A stretch of 64,000 nucleotides of DNA, taken from contig NZ_CP009754.1 of NCBI RefSeq assembly GCF_000772045.1, positions 3,162,001-3,226,000 of the forward strand. The letters run 5' to 3'. Each line of letters starts with the position of its first letter. Positions within the stretch are counted from its first letter, which is position 1. Below, in pieces: positions 31,861 to 38,105 of the stretch. The notes below the pieces were generated by a model that saw only the letters and a list, made by a program, of their open reading frames with translations, ran no database searches and was not told where the DNA came from. A program made the position numbers and the translations under genes. Source of the stretch: Streptomyces sp. CCM_MD2014. GTDB lineage: Bacteria; Actinomycetota; Actinomycetes; Streptomycetales; Streptomycetaceae.

Positions 31861-33111
31861 TCAGCCCGCGCTCGCGGACCGGCGTGAGCGGCGGTTGCGC
31901 CACCAGGTGACCAGCCAGAGGACGTTGACGCCGCCCAGGACCACCAGCACCGTCACCGCGTCGGCGTTGCCGGCCAGGCCGTGTTCCGGCCCCAGGCCGC
32001 GCACGGCGCGGACGAGGAGGGCGAGGTCGACGGGCAGGGTGACCGCGGCCATGAACGTCAGACAGGCCGCCGTGCCGACCACGAGGACGACGCTGTAGAT
32101 CCGGACGGCCCGCCGCTCGTGCGCGGGCAGCCGGGTACTGGGGTCCTCCCGTGCCGCCTCGGTACGCGGGCCACGCCGCACCGGCCGCACGGCGCGCCGG
32201 AACCTGTACCGCGCGTACGCCAGACCGTCCCCGTACAGGTCACGGCAGCCGGTGAGGTCCTGGAGGACGAAGTACAGGTCGGTGCGGGTGAAGACCATGC
32301 ACTGGAAGGGCAGCGGCAGCAGGGCGAGGAGCAGGGCCGCGGCCAGCAGGCGGTGGGCCGTCGTCCCGGTCTCCGTCGCGGCGAGGACCAGGACGAGGGA
32401 GGACGCGACGGACAGGTTGAGGGCGATACCGGCCAGATAGGCCGTCAGCCGGTGGCGGCGGGGCGCGAGTTCGATGCCGCTGATGTCGGTCTGCATGACG
32501 AGGAACTGCAGCCGGGTGCCCAGCCGCATCTTCCCCGGCACACCCGCCGCCCGGGCGGTGACCAGGTGTGCCAGTTCGTGGGCCAGCAGCAGCGCCCACC
32601 CGGCCGCAGCCCCGCTCAGGAGCACCACGCTGCCGTGGCGGCTCCACAACAGGTCGCGGTAGCCGGGCAGCAGGTCGGGACGGCGCACCAGCACGGCGAG
32701 GGCGGCCGCGAGCAGTGCTCCGACGAGCAGCGGAAGCACCGGGTGCAGGGCGAGGCGGACGTGGCGGGGGCGCAGCCACGGCAGGGACGCCCGGGGCGGT
32801 TCGGCATCCGGGACCGGGCGGTCGCCGATCCGCGCCACGAAGCCCAGCGCGGCCAGGTCCCCGACGAAGTCCGCGATGTCGAACTCCTCCCCGGTCTCGG
32901 CACGCAGCGTCTCTTCGGTGCGTGCCACGCTCCGCCCCGCGCGCAGGAGTTCCACCGCGCGTGCCCCGGCCGCCGGGAGGGCGACGAAGGTCCGGGTGGC
33001 CATGCGGCCCACGATCCACTCGTCGCGGTCCGGTCGTACCGCCAGGTCGTGCAGGACGACGCGGGTCGTCGGCCCGATCCGGGGAGGGACGTCGGCGGCG
33101 GTGTCCGTCAC
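31861..33111 (-). CDS. M50-type membrane metalloprotease with N-terminal PqqD-like domain (RiPP locus)
   Basis: 416 residues. GTG 33111 overlaps the upstream ThiF-like stop (GTGA), so translation is coupled. Residues about 10-97 look like a PqqD-type winged helix (RTFVALPAAGARAVELLRAG, then DFVGDLAALGFVARIG), the module that binds leader peptides in RiPP enzymes. Membrane helices follow, with zinc motif LLLAHELAHLV (His178, Glu179, His182) and a conserved TDLYFVLQDL with Asp278 as likely third ligand. Two helices close the protein. This matches M50 proteases of peptide-modification clusters; it probably cleaves or exports the modified peptide encoded at 34532. Confidence 0.85.
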   Translation of the reverse strand: MTDTAADVPPRIGPTTRVVLHDLAVRPDRDEWIVGRMATRTFVALPAAGARAVELLRAGRSVARTEETLRAETGEEFDIADFVGDLAALGFVARIGDRPVPDAEPPRASLPWLRPRHVRLALHPVLPLLVGALLAAALAVLVRRPDLLPGYRDLLWSRHGSVVLLSGAAAGWALLLAHELAHLVTARAAGVPGKMRLGTRLQFLVMQTDISGIELAPRRHRLTAYLAGIALNLSVASSLVLVLAATETGTTAHRLLAAALLLALLPLPFQCMVFTRTDLYFVLQDLTGCRDLYGDGLAYARYRFRRAVRPVRRGPRTEAAREDPSTRLPAHERRAVRIYSVVLVVGTAACLTFMAAVTLPVDLALLVRAVRGLGPEHGLAGNADAVTVLVVLGGVNVLWLVTWWRNRRSRRSASAG

Positions 33112-34349
33112 GACGGGTCCCGGTCGCCGGAGCCGGAACGCGCGGCCGGTACCGGGTCCGGAACCGGGTCCGATACCGGGACGGGCTCCGCCCGGCGGCA
33201 GGCCGGGCAGTCGGGGCGCCGCCGTGCGCGCTGCATGACGGGGTCGCCCGGCATCATGAGGTTGAGGCCGAACCGGCATCCGGGTTCGACGGGCGGTACG
33301 CCGCACAGGAGCATCAGGGCGGCGTGGGCCAGCAGCCCGCCCGACAGGCCGGCGGTCACGGCGTTGGCCGGGTTCCACGGCATGCGGGGCGAGGCCGCGT
33401 CCTCGTCCTGGCCGGGGCCGAGCCGCAGGTCGCGCCGTTCGACCTCGGCGTCGCGCAGGCACTGCCAGCACGCGCCCCGGCCGGGCGTGAAGACGCCGAC
33501 GCTGACCAGCGGCCCGCGGTAGCCCGCCTCGGCCCACGGCGTGCCCGTGGACAGGCAGACCTGGTTGGCCCACCTGCGGATCGCGGCGGGACGGTCGGCG
33601 GCGAGCAGCAGCGCGTCGTAACCGGGCGCGCGAGCGGGGCCGTCGGGGCTTCCGCTGTTGGCGCCGGTCAGCAGGTCTTCGAGGTCCGCCGGGCCGCGCA
33701 CCTCGCGCCGCTCGCCGGTGACCTCGGTGTCCGGATTCAGCGCGCGCAGGGCGGTGAGCGCCGCGTCGAGCTTCGGCTTGCCGAGGTCGTCCTCGCGGAA
33801 GAGCGTCTGCCGGTTGAGGTTGGACAGTTCGACCACGTCCGGTTCGACGCAGTGCAGCCGCCCCACGCCGGACGCCACCAGGTCCCGGGCGGCGGCCGAG
33901 CCGGTGCCGCCGACCCCGATCAGCAGGACCCGTGCCCTGCGCAGCAGCAGTTGCGGCTCCCAGGCGCTGCTCCTGGGCCGCAGGTCCATCCAGCGCAGCA
34001 GGGTCATGCCCCTGCTGTACCTCTCGCGTTCCCGCTCGGACAGTTCCGCGGGCGGCTCGGCGCCGGCGTCCTCGACGTACCCGGCGTCGGTGAGGTCCGT
34101 CATCGCCTGGGCGATGTCCGGCTCCGGCAGCCGCAGTTCCGGATGGCGTCGGGACACCTCCGCGACGACGTCCGTGGCACTCCGCGTCCCGTCCATGGCC
34201 TGCACCAGGGACCAGACCCAGCCGTCGGCGTCCCGCACCTCGGCTCCGATGCCGTGGACCACACTGCCGATCCGCACGTGACCGTCCACGGTCCGGTAGG
34301 CGCGGTGCTCCGGTTTGATCCGGGGCCGCCGCATCGCGTGCACCGTCAT
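33108..34349 (-). CDS. ThiF/E1-like adenylating enzyme with N-terminal PqqD-like domain (RiPP locus)
   Basis: 413 residues from ATG 34349; an in-frame GTG/ATG further upstream is possible. Residues 15-95 form a PqqD-like domain (DGWVWSLVQAMDGTRSATDV, DLTDAGYVED). The E1-like part has nucleotide loop GVGGTGS (145-151), EPDVVELSNLNRQ with ribose Asp171 and Arg180, KPKLDAA Lys, catalytic Asp252 in LLLAADRP, and a zinc site CWQC (294-297) with CPAC (381-384). All residues for ATP-dependent adenylation of a peptide C-terminus are present. Relatives include MccB, PaaA and TOMM leader-binding ThiF proteins. No YcaO gene is near, so azoline formation is unlikely. Confidence 0.88.
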   Translation of the reverse strand: MTVHAMRRPRIKPEHRAYRTVDGHVRIGSVVHGIGAEVRDADGWVWSLVQAMDGTRSATDVVAEVSRRHPELRLPEPDIAQAMTDLTDAGYVEDAGAEPPAELSERERERYSRGMTLLRWMDLRPRSSAWEPQLLLRRARVLLIGVGGTGSAAARDLVASGVGRLHCVEPDVVELSNLNRQTLFREDDLGKPKLDAALTALRALNPDTEVTGERREVRGPADLEDLLTGANSGSPDGPARAPGYDALLLAADRPAAIRRWANQVCLSTGTPWAEAGYRGPLVSVGVFTPGRGACWQCLRDAEVERRDLRLGPGQDEDAASPRMPWNPANAVTAGLSGGLLAHAALMLLCGVPPVEPGCRFGLNLMMPGDPVMQRARRRPDCPACRRAEPVPVSDPVPDPVPAARSGSGDRDPS

Positions 34350-34531
34350 TTTCGCGCCAACCTCGCCATCCCCACCTACGCGCCCCACAACGGACATTGA
34401 CAACAGTGACCGGGCGAGCGAACGCTGACAAGAGCACAACGTGCCCCTCAGGCCACAGCACGACCGCCCAGCGGCACGACGGCACATCGGCACATCGGTC
34501 ATCACCAGGGTCACCACCGGAAGGAGACGAC
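34350..34531. promoter_or_regulatory. Divergent control region of the RiPP-like locus
   Basis: 182 bases between the ThiF-like gene and the peptide gene. A TTGACA hexamer at 34397-34402 points toward the peptide gene, with only a weak -10 (AACGCT, 34421-34426). The complementary strand has TTGTCA at about the same place pointing the other way. CGGCACAT is repeated in tandem at about 34486-34501. A strong AAGGAG ribosome site (34520-34525) ends the region. One regulator could serve both directions. Confidence 0.45.
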
Positions 34532-34609
34532 ATGGCGAACAAGATCGAGATCCGTCCGCTGGACAAGAAGGAGACCACCGGCGACAGCGGCGGCAACGGC
34601 GGCTCCTGA
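34532..34609 (+). CDS. 25-residue putative RiPP precursor peptide ending GGNGGS
   Basis: ATG 34532 follows AAGGAG at six to seven bases, the best ribosome site in this region. The peptide begins MANKIEIRPLDKKETT and ends GDSGGNGGS. The N-terminal half looks like a leader: alternating hydrophobic and charged residues (IEIRPL) able to form the beta strand that docks on PqqD-like domains. The glycine-rich tail has no Cys and only Ser, Asn, Asp and Thr as side chains. It is followed 13 bases later by the M14 peptidase gene and is divergent from the E1-like and M50 genes. No known precursor is recognised. The frame is open upstream to a TTG at 34397, so a 70-residue form is a weaker alternative. 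Confidence 0.75.
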   Translation: MANKIEIRPLDKKETTGDSGGNGGS

Positions 34610-34622
34610 CCGGACGCGCCCG

Positions 34623-36011
34623 ATGCACCGCTACCCCACGGTCGCGGAAGTCACCGAGGCGGCGCGGCGGCTGGTCTTCCGGTTCCCCGGGGCCTGCCGC
34701 CTGCGCCGTATCGGCACGTCCCGGGCGGGACGGCCGATCCCGATGCTGTCGGTGGGGCACGGGCCGCGCCACGTCCTGGTGGTGGCCCGGCCGCACCCGG
34801 ACGAACCGGTGGGCGGCGCGACGGCGCTGGCACTGGCGGAGCGGGCCGCGGCCGGCGACCGGCACTCCCCGGCGACCGACCCCGACACCGTCACCTGGGA
34901 CATCGTCCTGTGCCTCGACCCGGACGGCGCCGCGCTCAGCGAGGGCATCGAGGCGGCCACGGCCGGCCCCGACCCCGCCCTGGCCCGCTACTACCGAGCC
35001 GCCTTCCGCCCGGTCGCGGCGGAGCAGCCGGAGTGGGCACCGATCGTCGGACGCCGACTGCCCGAGAGCCGCGCCCTGTTCGCGGTGATCGACGAGCTCC
35101 GCCCGGTCCTCCAGTGCTCCCTGCACAATGTCGACGCGGGCGGCACCTGGGTCCAGCTGACCGGCGACCTCCCCGGCCTCGCCACCCCCTACGCGACGTC
35201 CGCCTCGGCCCTGGACATCCCGGTCCAGCACGGCACGTACGACGCCCTCTACTGGGAGAACCCGGCCCCCGGCGTCCACGTCCTGCCGCCGCCGGACAGC
35301 ACCGCCCGCCTGGCGGCCGGCTCCGAGAACATCGCCCTGTCCACCTGGTGCGCACCCCAGCGGTACGGCGGCGTCACGGCGATCGTCGAGGTCCCCCTGT
35401 GGGCCACCGCCCCGGCCGACGACCGGACCCCGCACCCGGACCCCGCCCGTGCCCTGCGCGACCTGTCCGCGCTGGTACGCGAAGGCGGCCGTCAGGTCAC
35501 CGCCGTCTTCGACAAGGCCCGCGGCTTCCTGCCCCCGGCCGAGCACAGCCCGCCCAGACGCGTACTGGAGTGGATGGCCGACGACCTGTACGACCTGGTC
35601 GCCGACGCCTGGCAACCCCTCGCCGACCAGGCACACTCGGCCCCCGGCTCCCCCGCGCTAACGACGGCCGGAATCAGCGCCCTGGAGGTCGTCGCCCGCC
35701 GACAGCCGCTGCGCGCGGCGGGGCTCCTGCTACGCCTCCTGGACGCGGCCGACGACCCGGCGTCCGCCGCCCTCCACCACGAACTCGACGGCCTCTTCAC
35801 CACCTGGTGCACGGACTTCGAGCAGTCCCTACGCCTGCGCCCGGTCCCCGTGCACGCCCAGGTGGAACTCCAGACCCGTACGGTGCTGGCGGCGGCGGAG
35901 TGCGCGCTGGGGCACACCGTCACAGCGGACGTCGCGCCCAGAACAGCGCATGCCCGCCGTTCCCCTCGGGGACGAATTCCTCCTGCTCGACCGTCAGGCC
36001 CGACCGGGTGA
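34623..36011 (+). CDS. M14-family zinc carboxypeptidase-like enzyme (RiPP locus)
   Basis: 462 residues, ATG 34623, 13 bases after the peptide gene and with no strong ribosome site of its own, so coupling is likely. The M14 zinc ligands are visible: HPDE (His58, Glu61) and SLHNVD (His168); the catalytic Glu256 is in AIVEVPLW. There is no signal peptide, so it acts in the cytoplasm. The C-terminal 150 residues are helical. M14 enzymes remove C-terminal residues, and with the precursor ending in Ser after Gly-Gly it could trim the tail before or after adenylation. The last 92 bases overlap the convergent methyltransferase gene. Confidence 0.85.
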   Translation: MHRYPTVAEVTEAARRLVFRFPGACRLRRIGTSRAGRPIPMLSVGHGPRHVLVVARPHPDEPVGGATALALAERAAAGDRHSPATDPDTVTWDIVLCLDPDGAALSEGIEAATAGPDPALARYYRAAFRPVAAEQPEWAPIVGRRLPESRALFAVIDELRPVLQCSLHNVDAGGTWVQLTGDLPGLATPYATSASALDIPVQHGTYDALYWENPAPGVHVLPPPDSTARLAAGSENIALSTWCAPQRYGGVTAIVEVPLWATAPADDRTPHPDPARALRDLSALVREGGRQVTAVFDKARGFLPPAEHSPPRRVLEWMADDLYDLVADAWQPLADQAHSAPGSPALTTAGISALEVVARRQPLRAAGLLLRLLDAADDPASAALHHELDGLFTTWCTDFEQSLRLRPVPVHAQVELQTRTVLAAAECALGHTVTADVAPRTAHARRSPRGRIPPARPSGPTG

Positions 36012-36537
36012 GCCAGGCTCGGTTGGTGTCGGCATCCGCGTGGCTCCACCACATGGCGACACCGCTGTCCAGCCAGTTCTCGTCCGTGCCGGTCCACTCG
36101 TGCTGACCGGTGCTGCAGAGAAACCAGCCACCAGGCCGCAGCCACGACGCAATCCTCTCCAGCAACGGAGGCTGTTCCTCCAGCGGGATATGGATCAGGG
36201 CATAGAGGGACACCACGGCATCGAAGGAACCGTCCGGGAAGTCCACCGCCGTGGCGTCTGCCGTGATGAAGTCGGCGTCGGGCACGAGTTCCCGAGCCCG
36301 GCGGATCTGCACCTCGCTGATGTCGATGCCGGTGACGTGGTGTCCCGCCCTCACAAGGTCACGCGCGACCGGTACTCCGCTGCCACAGCCCAGGTCCAGC
36401 ACCCTGCTGCCGTCCACGAGGCGCGCGTTCAGGCTCGCGATCCACGACGGGTACTTCGTATCGGACCGGTACGCCTCGTCGTAACGCAGCGAAAGCGCGT
36501 CGTACCCGCGCCGCACCAGATCCTTGGGATTCTCCAC
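35920..36537 (-). CDS. SAM-dependent methyltransferase (UbiE/COQ5-like)
   Basis: 205 residues from GTG 36537; the start is uncertain because no strong ribosome site is present. Motif I is VLDLGCGSGVPVARDL, motif II region VTGIDISEVQIRRAREL, and motif IV DGSFDAVVSLYALIH. The C-terminal GGHALFWARRP is common in bacterial small-molecule methyltransferases. It converges with and overlaps the M14 gene by 92 bases. It may methylate the product of the RiPP-like locus, but it is not in the same operon and may simply be a neighbour. Confidence 0.85.
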   Translation of the reverse strand: MENPKDLVRRGYDALSLRYDEAYRSDTKYPSWIASLNARLVDGSRVLDLGCGSGVPVARDLVRAGHHVTGIDISEVQIRRARELVPDADFITADATAVDFPDGSFDAVVSLYALIHIPLEEQPPLLERIASWLRPGGWFLCSTGQHEWTGTDENWLDSGVAMWWSHADADTNRAWLTRSGLTVEQEEFVPEGNGGHALFWARRPL

Positions 36538-36614
36538 AGCCACAGCCAAGAACGCTAGCGCCCTCGTTCTGCGTCCGACGACCCCTTTTTGCCCGGGAAG
36601 CAAAACTGCCGCGT

Positions 36615-38105
36615 TCAGCTCCAGGCCCGCCGTTCCCGGCCGCGGGGGTCGTCGACCCGCGTCCACTCGGCGTCGATGCGCATGGTGGCCCGGCGGTCGG
36701 TGTCGTACGGGTCCCAGCCGGGGTCGCCGGTCCGGGCGAACCGGATCCAGGTCTCGTGGACGCGGCCGGCGAGATCCGCGGGGGCCTCGTCGGGGCCGAG
36801 CAGGGCGCCCGGGCCGTGGAGTTCCGGCCGGTCCGCGAGGTCGAACACGAAGGGCAGTTCGACCGCGTGGGTGGCGCCCAGTTCTCCGTCCAGGGCGTGG
36901 GAGCGCCAGGCGAACTCGTAGGCATAGGTGCCGGACCGCGGGTGGGCGGCGTGGGCGTCGGCCAGCGCGCGGCTGCCCGCGCCGAACAGGGCGTCGGCCA
37001 TGATGGCGGAGCGCAGTTCCGCGAAGGACGCTCCGGGACGTGCCGCGCGGTAGGTCTCGACGAGCCGCGCGGGATCGGGGTGCGAGCGTGCGGCGGCCTC
37101 CTCGACGTCGGCGGCGGTCGAGGAGGCGTACGTGCCCACCGGGACCAGGTAGAGGTTGCCCTCCTCGGCGTTGGTGCCGACGAGCAGGTCGACGTCGGCG
37201 GCGCGACCGGCGGCGACGGAAGCGGCGGGCTGGGTGTCCAGGACCAGGCTGAAGGGGCTGAGGCCGATCAGCGGGTCGCCGTGGGTCCCGGTCCGCAGGT
37301 CGATGCCCGTCAGCTCGGCGGCCGCCTCGACGAGCCGCTCGTCCGGGATGCCGCCGAAGGCGTCCACGCGGGGCTCGATGCCCAGGACCCCGGCCGCGGC
37401 GCGGGTGACACGGGCGGCCTGCTCGGGCGTGAACGCGCCCAGGCCGCTGCCGCTCTGCACGATCGCCCGGCGGAACAGCCCGGCGGCCTCCGGGGTGGCG
37501 AGGACGCCGCCGACGATGGTCGCCCCGGCCGACTGGCCGAAGAGGGTGACGTTGCGCGGGTCGCCGCCGAAGGCGGAGATGTTCTCCCGGACCCAGCGCA
37601 GCGCGGCGACGACGTCGAGCAGACCGCGGTTGGCGGGCGCTCCGGGAACGTCGAGGAACCCGGCCATCCCGAGCCGGTAGTTGAGGGTGACGAGGACGAC
37701 ACCGTCACGGGCGAACGCGGTGCCGTCGTACAGGGCGGCCCGCGTCGATCCGGCGACGAAACCGCCGCCGTGGACGAACACCATGACCGGCAGGGCGTCG
37801 CCTCCGGCGGCGGGCGCGAAGACGTTGACGGTGAGGTAGTCCTCGCCGCGGCTCCAGCCGGTGCCGAAGTAGGGGGTCATGTCGATGTCGCCGAGCCTGC
37901 GCGCGGACTGCGGGGCGTTGGGCCCCGGGACGGTGGCGTCCCGTACGCCGTCCCACGGCTCGTGCGGCTGCGGCGGGGCGAACCTGCCCGTGCCGCGGGG
38001 CGGGGCGGCGTACGGGATGTTCAGGAAGGTGCGGGTGTCGCCCTGGCGCAGGCCGCGGACGGCGCCCTGCGCGGTGGTGACGACGGGTCCGGGGTGCTGG
38101 TTCAT
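36615..38105 (-). CDS. Type B carboxylesterase
   Basis: 496 residues, ATG 38105 (a GTG at 38123 is in frame). Alpha/beta hydrolase of the carboxylesterase/cholinesterase family: oxyanion hole FVHGGGFVAGS, nucleophile in GQSAGA, acidic residue in GTNAEEGN and His in ATHAVELPFVFD. No signal peptide, so cytoplasmic. It hydrolyses esters of small alcohols or antibiotics in relatives; substrate here unknown. It follows the beta-lactamase-fold hydrolase gene on the same strand, separated by 113 bases that hold three 26-base tandem repeats. Confidence 0.93.
   Translation of the reverse strand: MNQHPGPVVTTAQGAVRGLRQGDTRTFLNIPYAAPPRGTGRFAPPQPHEPWDGVRDATVPGPNAPQSARRLGDIDMTPYFGTGWSRGEDYLTVNVFAPAAGGDALPVMVFVHGGGFVAGSTRAALYDGTAFARDGVVLVTLNYRLGMAGFLDVPGAPANRGLLDVVAALRWVRENISAFGGDPRNVTLFGQSAGATIVGGVLATPEAAGLFRRAIVQSGSGLGAFTPEQAARVTRAAAGVLGIEPRVDAFGGIPDERLVEAAAELTGIDLRTGTHGDPLIGLSPFSLVLDTQPAASVAAGRAADVDLLVGTNAEEGNLYLVPVGTYASSTAADVEEAAARSHPDPARLVETYRAARPGASFAELRSAIMADALFGAGSRALADAHAAHPRSGTYAYEFAWRSHALDGELGATHAVELPFVFDLADRPELHGPGALLGPDEAPADLAGRVHETWIRFARTGDPGWDPYDTDRRATMRIDAEWTRVDDPRGRERRAWS

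Follow-up and report, generated by a model that had tools for sequence, protein, structure and literature searches.

What product could be made by four genes in two divergent pairs, one of which encodes a peptide of just 25 residues? Such a cassette lies within our window, i.e., the whole stretch of DNA analysed (64,000 nucleotides of the genome of Streptomyces sp. CCM_MD2014). Few RRE-ThiF RiPP enzymes have yet been investigated, and their reactions all differ. An earlier note had read the cassette as RiPP-like, with an adenylation-based mechanism directed at a tiny peptide and RREs on both minus-strand proteins, and our analysis sustains that reading: an assignment to a minimal RiPP gene cluster is well supported by sequence comparison and structural models, whereas the chemistry of the cassette is one that we infer.

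Organization of the locus

The four-gene coordinates and strands, and a GTGA overlap between the E1-like and M50 genes (33108-33111), are as the earlier note gave them, and the features are as follows:

31861..33111, minus strand: gene for an RRE-M50 intramembrane zinc protease (RRE fold matches, PqqD Pfam matches, invariant motifs)
33108..34349, minus strand: gene for an RRE-ThiF (E1-like) adenylating enzyme of the MccB/PaaA type (PF00899, MccB/PaaA matches, RRE alignment)
34397..34437, no strand: conserved block TTGACAAC ... CTGACAAGAGCAC of the divergent intergenic region (alignment of upstream regions), possibly a shared regulatory region
34519..34526, plus strand: ribosome-binding site GGAAGGAG of the peptide gene (from the sequence, with similar sites 5' of homologue peptides)
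34532..34609, plus strand: gene for the 25-residue precursor peptide MANKIEIRPLDKKETTGDSGGNGGS (kept in close loci; pN/pS 0.18)
34623..36011, plus strand: gene for an M14 zinc carboxypeptidase, an accessory enzyme (PF00246 and invariant residues, see below)

The M14 gene starts 13 bases 3' of the peptide stop, and its frame, ~28 residues longer at the end than its homologues, shares 92 bp with the convergent methyltransferase gene (35920-36666). Convergent neighbors do bound the cassette on both sides, as previously proposed, and neither a RiPP enzyme nor a transporter was found among these flanking genes. The four-gene cassette itself encodes no transporter or regulator, and a promoter scan returned no sigma-70-like site.

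Leader conservation and core diversity

The window peptide consists of a leader, KIEIRPLDKKETT, and a core, GDSGGNGGS. All of the close homologous loci that we read in their entirety encode a near-identical leader followed by a variable tail, and the peptide is under purifying selection (the ratio given above, across a 15-codon block), so that, from sequence comparison, the peptide is a genuine gene. Such a pairing, in which a modifying enzyme is accompanied by the gene of a short precursor whose leader is conserved and whose core varies, is that of a RiPP locus. The GGxGG tail suggested earlier as a search marker had to be dropped because tails vary among relatives, which instead end in NSQGA, NSNGT, SNSVGN or QGSSN.

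Within the cores, variation spans the whole length around a fixed Ser/Cys position, which in the window peptide is Ser19, seven residues from the C-terminus. In a first set, 28 of 35 cores carry Ser or Cys at -6 or -7 (16.4 expected), and in a second set, fetched afterwards, 16 of 28 carry it at -6 (5.9 expected), a form of the rule picked once that set had been seen; none of 20,000 shuffles scored as high in either case, although these counts are not true probabilities because the cores share descent. A rule fixed beforehand (Ser, Cys or Lys at +3/+4 after ETT) gave a moderate enrichment in the second set, with 17 of 28 cores against 11.1 expected. Two close relatives differ by a Ser/Cys swap (NTYSGNSNS vs. 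TTYCGNSNS), while the xLREGG-like cores of one related subgroup (L276-L293) have neither residue at such a position. A nucleophile at a fixed distance from an activated C-terminus is the feature expected of a macrocyclizing ThiF RiPP, and the Ser/Cys at -6/-7, enriched here in two sets of related cores, is a candidate for it; alternatively, such a Ser, lying close to the leader, may instead belong to the protease site.

Two RRE-bearing enzymes and an accessory peptidase

The E1-like protein matches the ThiF family (PF00899, 6.7e-40, Pfam) and comprises an N-terminal RRE (~8-97) and an ATP domain (~130-390). Its closest solved relatives by sequence are MccB (7.7e-46) and PaaA (1.7e-45), which are again the top Foldseek hits, the best structural match being MccB (PDB 3h5n/3h5r). 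The N-terminus, RRE included, aligns with PaaA, and the PaaA-like_N Pfam model matches 29 of 38 homologues. Invariant residues comprise G145/147/148/150, D171, R180, K193 and D245, with R180 and K193 in motifs aligned with PaaA R174 and K187. Zinc-type CxxC pairs are conserved as well, and no further Cys is conserved across the homologues aligned. The protein thus shows an RRE fused to ThiF with an intact ATP site and no YcaO partner, and its proximity to MccB and PaaA places it among the RRE-ThiF RiPP enzymes (PMC12250964, PMC12150305); the earlier statement that known RiPP classes do not fit is contradicted by this affinity in both sequence and fold. PADLOC matches to an E1-E2 defence system stem solely from the common E1 domain, with no E2 and no ubiquitin fold, and this candidate was rejected.

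The M50 protein is organized as an RRE (~15-100), an HELAH motif (178-182) and an RTD motif (276-278), with H178, E179, H182 and D278 invariant among homologues; its PF02163 match (0.00045) falls under the curated cut-off. For its N-terminus, structure prediction gives a beta-alpha3 domain whose best PDB fold matches are RREs, and PqqD Pfam models match 16 of 44 homologues. Both minus-strand proteins hence begin with a PqqD-like domain, as had been proposed (from the PaaA alignment for E1 and the fold matches for M50), each being an RRE at the level of fold with a predicted role in leader binding. The earlier note had named two observations that would count against it, loci without a conserved peptide and the lack of a PqqD-like fold, and neither was made.

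The M14 protein (PF00246, 1.5e-8) has H58, E61, H168 and E256 invariant among homologues, such that the catalytic residues reported as visible in all three enzymes prove to be conserved.

Distribution of the family

Many actinobacteria keep close relatives of the cassette and its peptide, and a wider actinobacterial family retains E1, M50 and a peptide with an "IxIRxLDKxETT" leader; a phylum-wide search gained no further genomes. M14 is missing from most of this wider family, with DUF6879 present instead in many loci and the two never in one locus together. This scarcity and replacement suggest either an accessory role for C-terminal trimming or another function of M14, e.g., turnover or immunity. 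The proposed processing at both ends accordingly fits the M50-M14 pair of the window but not most wider-family loci, where M14 is absent.

In the mostly open literature that we searched, no paper joins RiPP, ThiF, M50, carboxypeptidase and PqqD, although an earlier mention is possible, and neither the leader strings nor DUF6879 are mentioned there. A 2025 ThiF review mentions neither Streptomyces nor M14 or M50, and the supplement of PMC12150305 shows further uncharacterized clusters. On this literature, the four-gene system is an apparently undescribed variant of RRE-ThiF RiPPs.

A proposed maturation scheme and its alternatives

To the scheme that follows, taken as a whole (C-terminal activation by E1, ring closure on Ser/Cys, leader removal by M50, and trimming or destruction by M14), we give roughly even odds. 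The leader strand KIEIRPL would bind the RREs of E1 and M50, and E1 with ATP would adenylate the core at its C-terminal carboxylate. The adenylate would then be attacked by a side chain, that of the conserved Ser or, in some relatives, Cys (one subgroup may use Lys), with a predicted macrolactone, thiolactone or lactam of 6-7 residues as the outcome. M50 would cut after ETT, freeing the core at the membrane, and M14 may trim or degrade peptides whose C-terminus is still free. Precedents are the thiolactone formed by GrcB and the C-terminal indolylamide formed by IndF (PMC12150305). The absence of a transporter or regulator gene from the cassette and the xLREGG-like cores count against the scheme. 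It would yield a cyclic peptide of very small size, which could plausibly serve as a signal or as an antibiotic of narrow range.

A Microcin C-like peptidyl nucleotide is an unlikely alternative, favored by MccB being the best structural match of E1. E1 would here link a nucleotide to the C-terminus, and M14, where present, would either first trim the tail (e.g., GGNGGS) to expose an Asn or act in self-immunity, as MccF does (PMC12250964). MccA ends in Asn, the residue used by MccB (PMC7136475, PMC12250964); the window peptide ends in Ser, and some relatives end in Asn. All M14-type cores contain an Asn, which is C-terminal in 0 of 19 of these vs. 12 of 33 other cores, a contrast that is possibly inherited, and M14 persists in two genomes (L158, L159) where E1 and M50 are lost at the locus. 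However, Asn is missing from several related cores (SFCATEM, TVLCSSSA), the cassette has no nucleotide-modifying genes, and a Nocardia locus (L185) with an SGNGAS tail has no M14 nearby, for which reason exposure of Asn by M14 is kept as a rival only.

The alignment of the RREs and the PaaA-like_N matches would suit activation of an internal Glu or Asp side chain, leading to a bicycle or isopeptide, with M14 stripping the follower, and D11, E14 and D18 are available in the peptide. Yet D18 is replaced by Pro, Leu or Gly in relatives (GPS, GLS and GGS variants), the leader Glu is Gln in L086 and is also common to loci without M14 and with other cores, and the core Glu-Glu pair and PaaB of pantocin are both lacking (no core Glu; no PaaB in the flanks). 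These unconserved acids argue against PaaA-like activation, which we consider improbable, and leave the C-terminus.

There is also a slim chance that the peptide serves as a scaffold that is used repeatedly, its C-terminal residue undergoing activation, modification or extension, with M50 acting as a carboxypeptidase to release a small molecule, since pearlin M50 proteases (TglG, TmoG) clip modified C-terminal amino acids off scaffold peptides (PMC10885120). The extremely conserved leader and short, small-residue-rich cores would agree with this, but the LanB-like peptide aminoacyl-tRNA ligase (PEARL) is absent from cassette and flanks, core variation around the fixed Ser/Cys is not confined to one terminal residue, and tandem precursors bear two different cores.

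Finally, that the peptide is a minimal ubiquitin-like modifier, activated by E1 and removed by M14 or M50, is scarcely credible despite the E1 fold and the GGNGGS tail, as 25 residues are too few for the fold, the tail is not conserved, E1 has no conserved catalytic Cys beyond its zinc-type ligands, and the flanks encode no E2.

Returning to ring closure on Ser/Cys, a broader proposal, to which we lean less, is that of a widespread and so far undescribed actinobacterial family in which RRE-ThiF enzymes close such rings (macrolactones or thiolactones of 6-7 residues), a shared RRE-M50 recognizes the common leader and frees all the products, exchangeable M14 and DUF6879 proteins act on the C-terminus by setting, editing or destroying it, and a second precursor with the core GDSNSQGA, 2.27 Mb off in the genome of the window, is matured in trans. 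The four-gene system is small enough to be rebuilt in vitro, and the scheme predicts both nucleophile and ring type, which the natural Ser/Cys exchanges would allow to be tested. Through the M14-DUF6879 swap, DUF6879, a family without assigned function, would gain a first biochemical context, and a Streptomyces macrolactone of 6-7 residues, if true, would readily suggest itself as a small signaling peptide.

Comparison with known systems

As in the pathway of MccB, an N-terminal RRE and ThiF fold meet a very short precursor and a peptidase partner (MccF in that case), but MccA has 7 residues and an Asn end as opposed to a 25-residue leader-core peptide, and the cassette here has M50 and M14 without nucleotide-tailoring genes or an exporter. 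PaaA likewise is an RRE-ThiF protein, with an alignable RRE and a precursor of ~30 residues bearing an RRE-binding leader motif, but acts on two adjacent core Glu, whereas our cassette has neither a conserved core acid nor PaaB. The streptococcal GrcB and IndF systems are also minimal clusters of a peptide and an RRE-ThiF enzyme (with a peptidase for IndF), and share carboxylate adenylation and then attack by a side chain of the core, a step and ring that are predicted here; their partners are a radical SAM enzyme for GrcB, and an M16 protease and a transporter for IndF, in place of RRE-M50 and M14. EpeP and TglG/TmoG are, like the M50 protein, intramembrane M50 zinc proteases acting on RiPP precursors, but belong to epipeptide or pearlin pathways, while here M50 is paired with a ThiF-like enzyme.

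Organization of the cassette

The window corresponds to C1:3162001-3226000 of a Streptomyces genome. Within it, the cassette spans positions 31861-36011 and comprises four genes in two divergent pairs, at the coordinates proposed in the earlier note, with a GTGA overlap joining the E1 and M50 genes.

Genes of the cassette (window coordinates)
31861-33111, minus strand: M50 protease (Pfam M50 0.00045, weak support)
33108-34349, minus strand: ThiF/E1-like protein (Pfam ThiF 6.7e-40)
34532-34609, plus strand: peptide gene of 25 codons, MANKIEIRPLDKKETTGDSGGNGGS, with GGAAGGAG upstream
34623-36011, plus strand: M14 carboxypeptidase (Pfam M14 1.5e-8), starting 13 bases past the peptide gene

Its neighbors encode a cupin/HTH regulator, two methyltransferases, a mycothiol-S-transferase, a carboxylesterase and a metallo-beta-lactamase-fold protein, with no RiPP enzyme or transporter among them. 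A conserved block (TTGACAAC...CTGACAAGAGCAC, 34397-34437) in the divergent intergenic region, present in most close loci, is possibly the shared control region.

The precursor peptide

Judged from its sequence conservation, the 25-codon frame is a genuine gene. An equivalent short frame sits at the same position, between E1 and M14, in close homologous loci. Distinct peptide sequences share the motif I-x-I-R-P-L-D/E-K-K-E/Q-T-T-x-x-S; over these 15 codons pN/pS is 0.18, and two thirds of the differences fall at third codon positions. Searched as a DNA pattern, IxIRPL[DE]KK[EQ]TT occurred at 30 places in 22 of 296 Streptomyces genomes, and the reversed control had no match in the same search.

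Some loci (L084, L087, L088, L091, L092) encode a GGNGG-type and an NSQGA-type peptide in tandem. The window's own genome carries an orphan NSQGA-type precursor, MAQKIEIRPLDKKETTGDSNSQGA (about C1:928784-928858; L156:7785-7859), next to a GNAT-like gene and 2.27 Mb from the enzymes, and genome G215 likewise has an orphan second precursor beside a GNAT-like gene (L157:6047-5973).

The enzymes

In a profile search with 38 E1 homologues, the nearest solved proteins were MccB (7.7e-46) and PaaA (1.7e-45), ahead of MoeB and ThiF, and the PaaA alignment extends over the N-terminal RRE (PqqD-like domain). The AlphaFold2 model (pLDDT 86.8) predicts a beta3-alpha3-beta domain followed by a Rossmann domain, and its top 26 Foldseek matches are all MccB and PaaA, which bears out the PqqD-like N-terminus proposed for E1. 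Invariant positions comprise the glycine loop, D171, R180, K193 and D245, together with four zinc-type cysteines; no other Cys is fully conserved among the homologues. R180 and K193 sit within motifs aligned to those holding PaaA R174 and K187, both reported to be required for activity (PMC12250964).

A PqqD-like N-terminus had also been proposed for M50, and fold and profile comparisons agree with it. The M50 model (AlphaFold2, pLDDT 93.5) predicts an N-terminal beta-alpha3 domain with membrane helices after it; RREs (TbiB1 with leader peptide, McbB, SkfB) rank top or near top for this domain in Foldseek against the PDB (TbiB1 probability 1.00, with whole-chain E-values >0.1). Pfam PqqD matches 16 of 44 M50 homologues (best 1.1e-5), and a profile-profile alignment pairs the N-terminus of E1 with that of M50 (E = 4.8e-5, probability 68%).

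The catalytic residues read from the sequence proved invariant in all three enzymes, including M50 H178, E179, H182 and D278 (44 homologues) and M14 H58, E61, H168, R129 and E256 (22 homologues). Carboxypeptidases A/B are the closest solved proteins to M14, whose C-terminus in the window is ~28 aa longer than in homologues; its frame extends 92 bp into the convergent methyltransferase gene (35920-36011). On the E1 tree, M14 forms essentially one block plus one plasmid copy (2 changes over 24 rows vs. a shuffled mean of 18.5). Where M14 is absent, DUF6879 (PF21806) is often present, and the two occurred together in none of the loci compared. The loci in which a DUF6879 protein accompanies E1/M50 and SNSxGN-type peptides are L162, L163, L165, L167, L169-L171, L179, L181, L090 and 20 of loci L239-L318.

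Distribution and related loci

The family extends beyond the window's cassette. Of 247 Streptomyces, 38 have an E1 homologue (E <= 1e-60), as do 70 of 201 genomes from a different actinobacterial family and, at class level, 16 of 395 genomes, spread over 9 of 137 genera. Most have M50 close by and a peptide with the leader (the conserved N-terminal part) I-x-I-R-x-L-D/E-x-x-E-T-T; among 80 newly fetched loci (the second set), a fixed rule found no peptide in 31, many with distant E1s. The adjacent M50 is absent from L036 and M14 from L090. L158 and L159 (genomes G293 and G278) have lost E1 and M50 and keep M14 with the peptide or a remnant of it, a natural partial deletion of the cassette; in L159 the peptide is intact and the window's left flanking genes are present.

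Next to a MobF relaxase gene on an Actinacidiphila plasmid (L184, NZ_CP109145.1) lies an E1-M50-M14 set whose peptide, MSKLTKTTAKTPAAAPARIGFRRLERVETTNSPCANAS, is unannotated. Apparently decayed copies in other Streptomyces (L077-L081) retain M50 fragments with in-frame stops, and M14 fragments too in L080 and L081. Two Streptomyces (L074:5726-5670, L075:7287-7343) encode an identical 18-residue peptide, MEIKVRKVEDVKATGLQV, adjacent to E1 and M50 and to a large regulator-like protein. The peptides of Kribbella-type loci (L056-L058) end in GCRNELCG or GCRDATCG, with Cys seven residues from the C-terminus. A separate M50 clade (L065-L069, L071-L073, L076, L082, L099, L100), whose members mostly occur with a TPR-like protein and often also with a flavin reductase-like protein, adjoins peptides of the form MKKIxIRKAGxVRLTSSAC... 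and appears to be a further uncharacterised RiPP family that lacks ThiF.

Core positions and proposed pathway

Of 31 cores in the first set of loci, 29 have Ser/Cys at position +3/+4 counted from ETT (15.3 expected). In the second set, S/C/K at these positions holds for 17 of 28 new cores (11.1 expected), a count reached in 144 of 20,000 shuffles. Counted from the C-terminus, a form of the rule picked only after the new cores were known, the pattern is sharper: 16 of the 28 new cores carry Ser/Cys at -6 (5.9 expected; 0 of 20,000 shuffles), and 28 of 35 first-set cores carry it at -6/-7. Close relatives exchange Ser and Cys (NTYSGNSNS/TTYCGNSNS), as a nucleophile would predict. In one subgroup Lys occupies +3 (QNKAVSR), and another (L276, L282, L285, L287-L289, L292, L293) combines the usual ETT leader with very short cores without Ser/Cys, ending in LREGG, ERDEG or similar, which fit neither position rule nor Lys; given these deviations, chemistry probably differs across the family, including in the LREGG-like subfamily.

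From the established gene content, leader and core conservation and active-site residues, together with the predicted folds, we infer a pathway in which the RREs would bind the leader and E1 would adenylate the C-terminal carboxylate. This choice of group follows MccB and IndF, which adenylate that carboxylate (PMC12250964, PMC12150305), and the lack of conserved acidic core residues (GPS, GLS, GGS variants). The Ser/Cys near the core start would be the likely nucleophile for ring closure, the leader may be cleaved after ETT, and M14 would presumably act in the same pathway.

Comparison with known systems

The window peptide lacks the C-terminal Asn that defines microcin C and the Glu-Glu core that defines pantocin, and the cassette lacks the PEARL of pearlins and the tested defining features of ubiquitin-like systems. 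We found no earlier account of this leader, of the cores or of M50 paired with M14. The earlier suggestion that known RiPP classes do not fit is not supported: with MccB and PaaA as its nearest solved relatives, E1 is one of the RRE-ThiF RiPP enzymes, and the cassette works like them. Since Rajput et al. reported 27,400 RRE-ThiF fusions with several clusters uncharacterised (PMC12150305), the cassette enzymes may already lie within an unlabelled cluster of that network.
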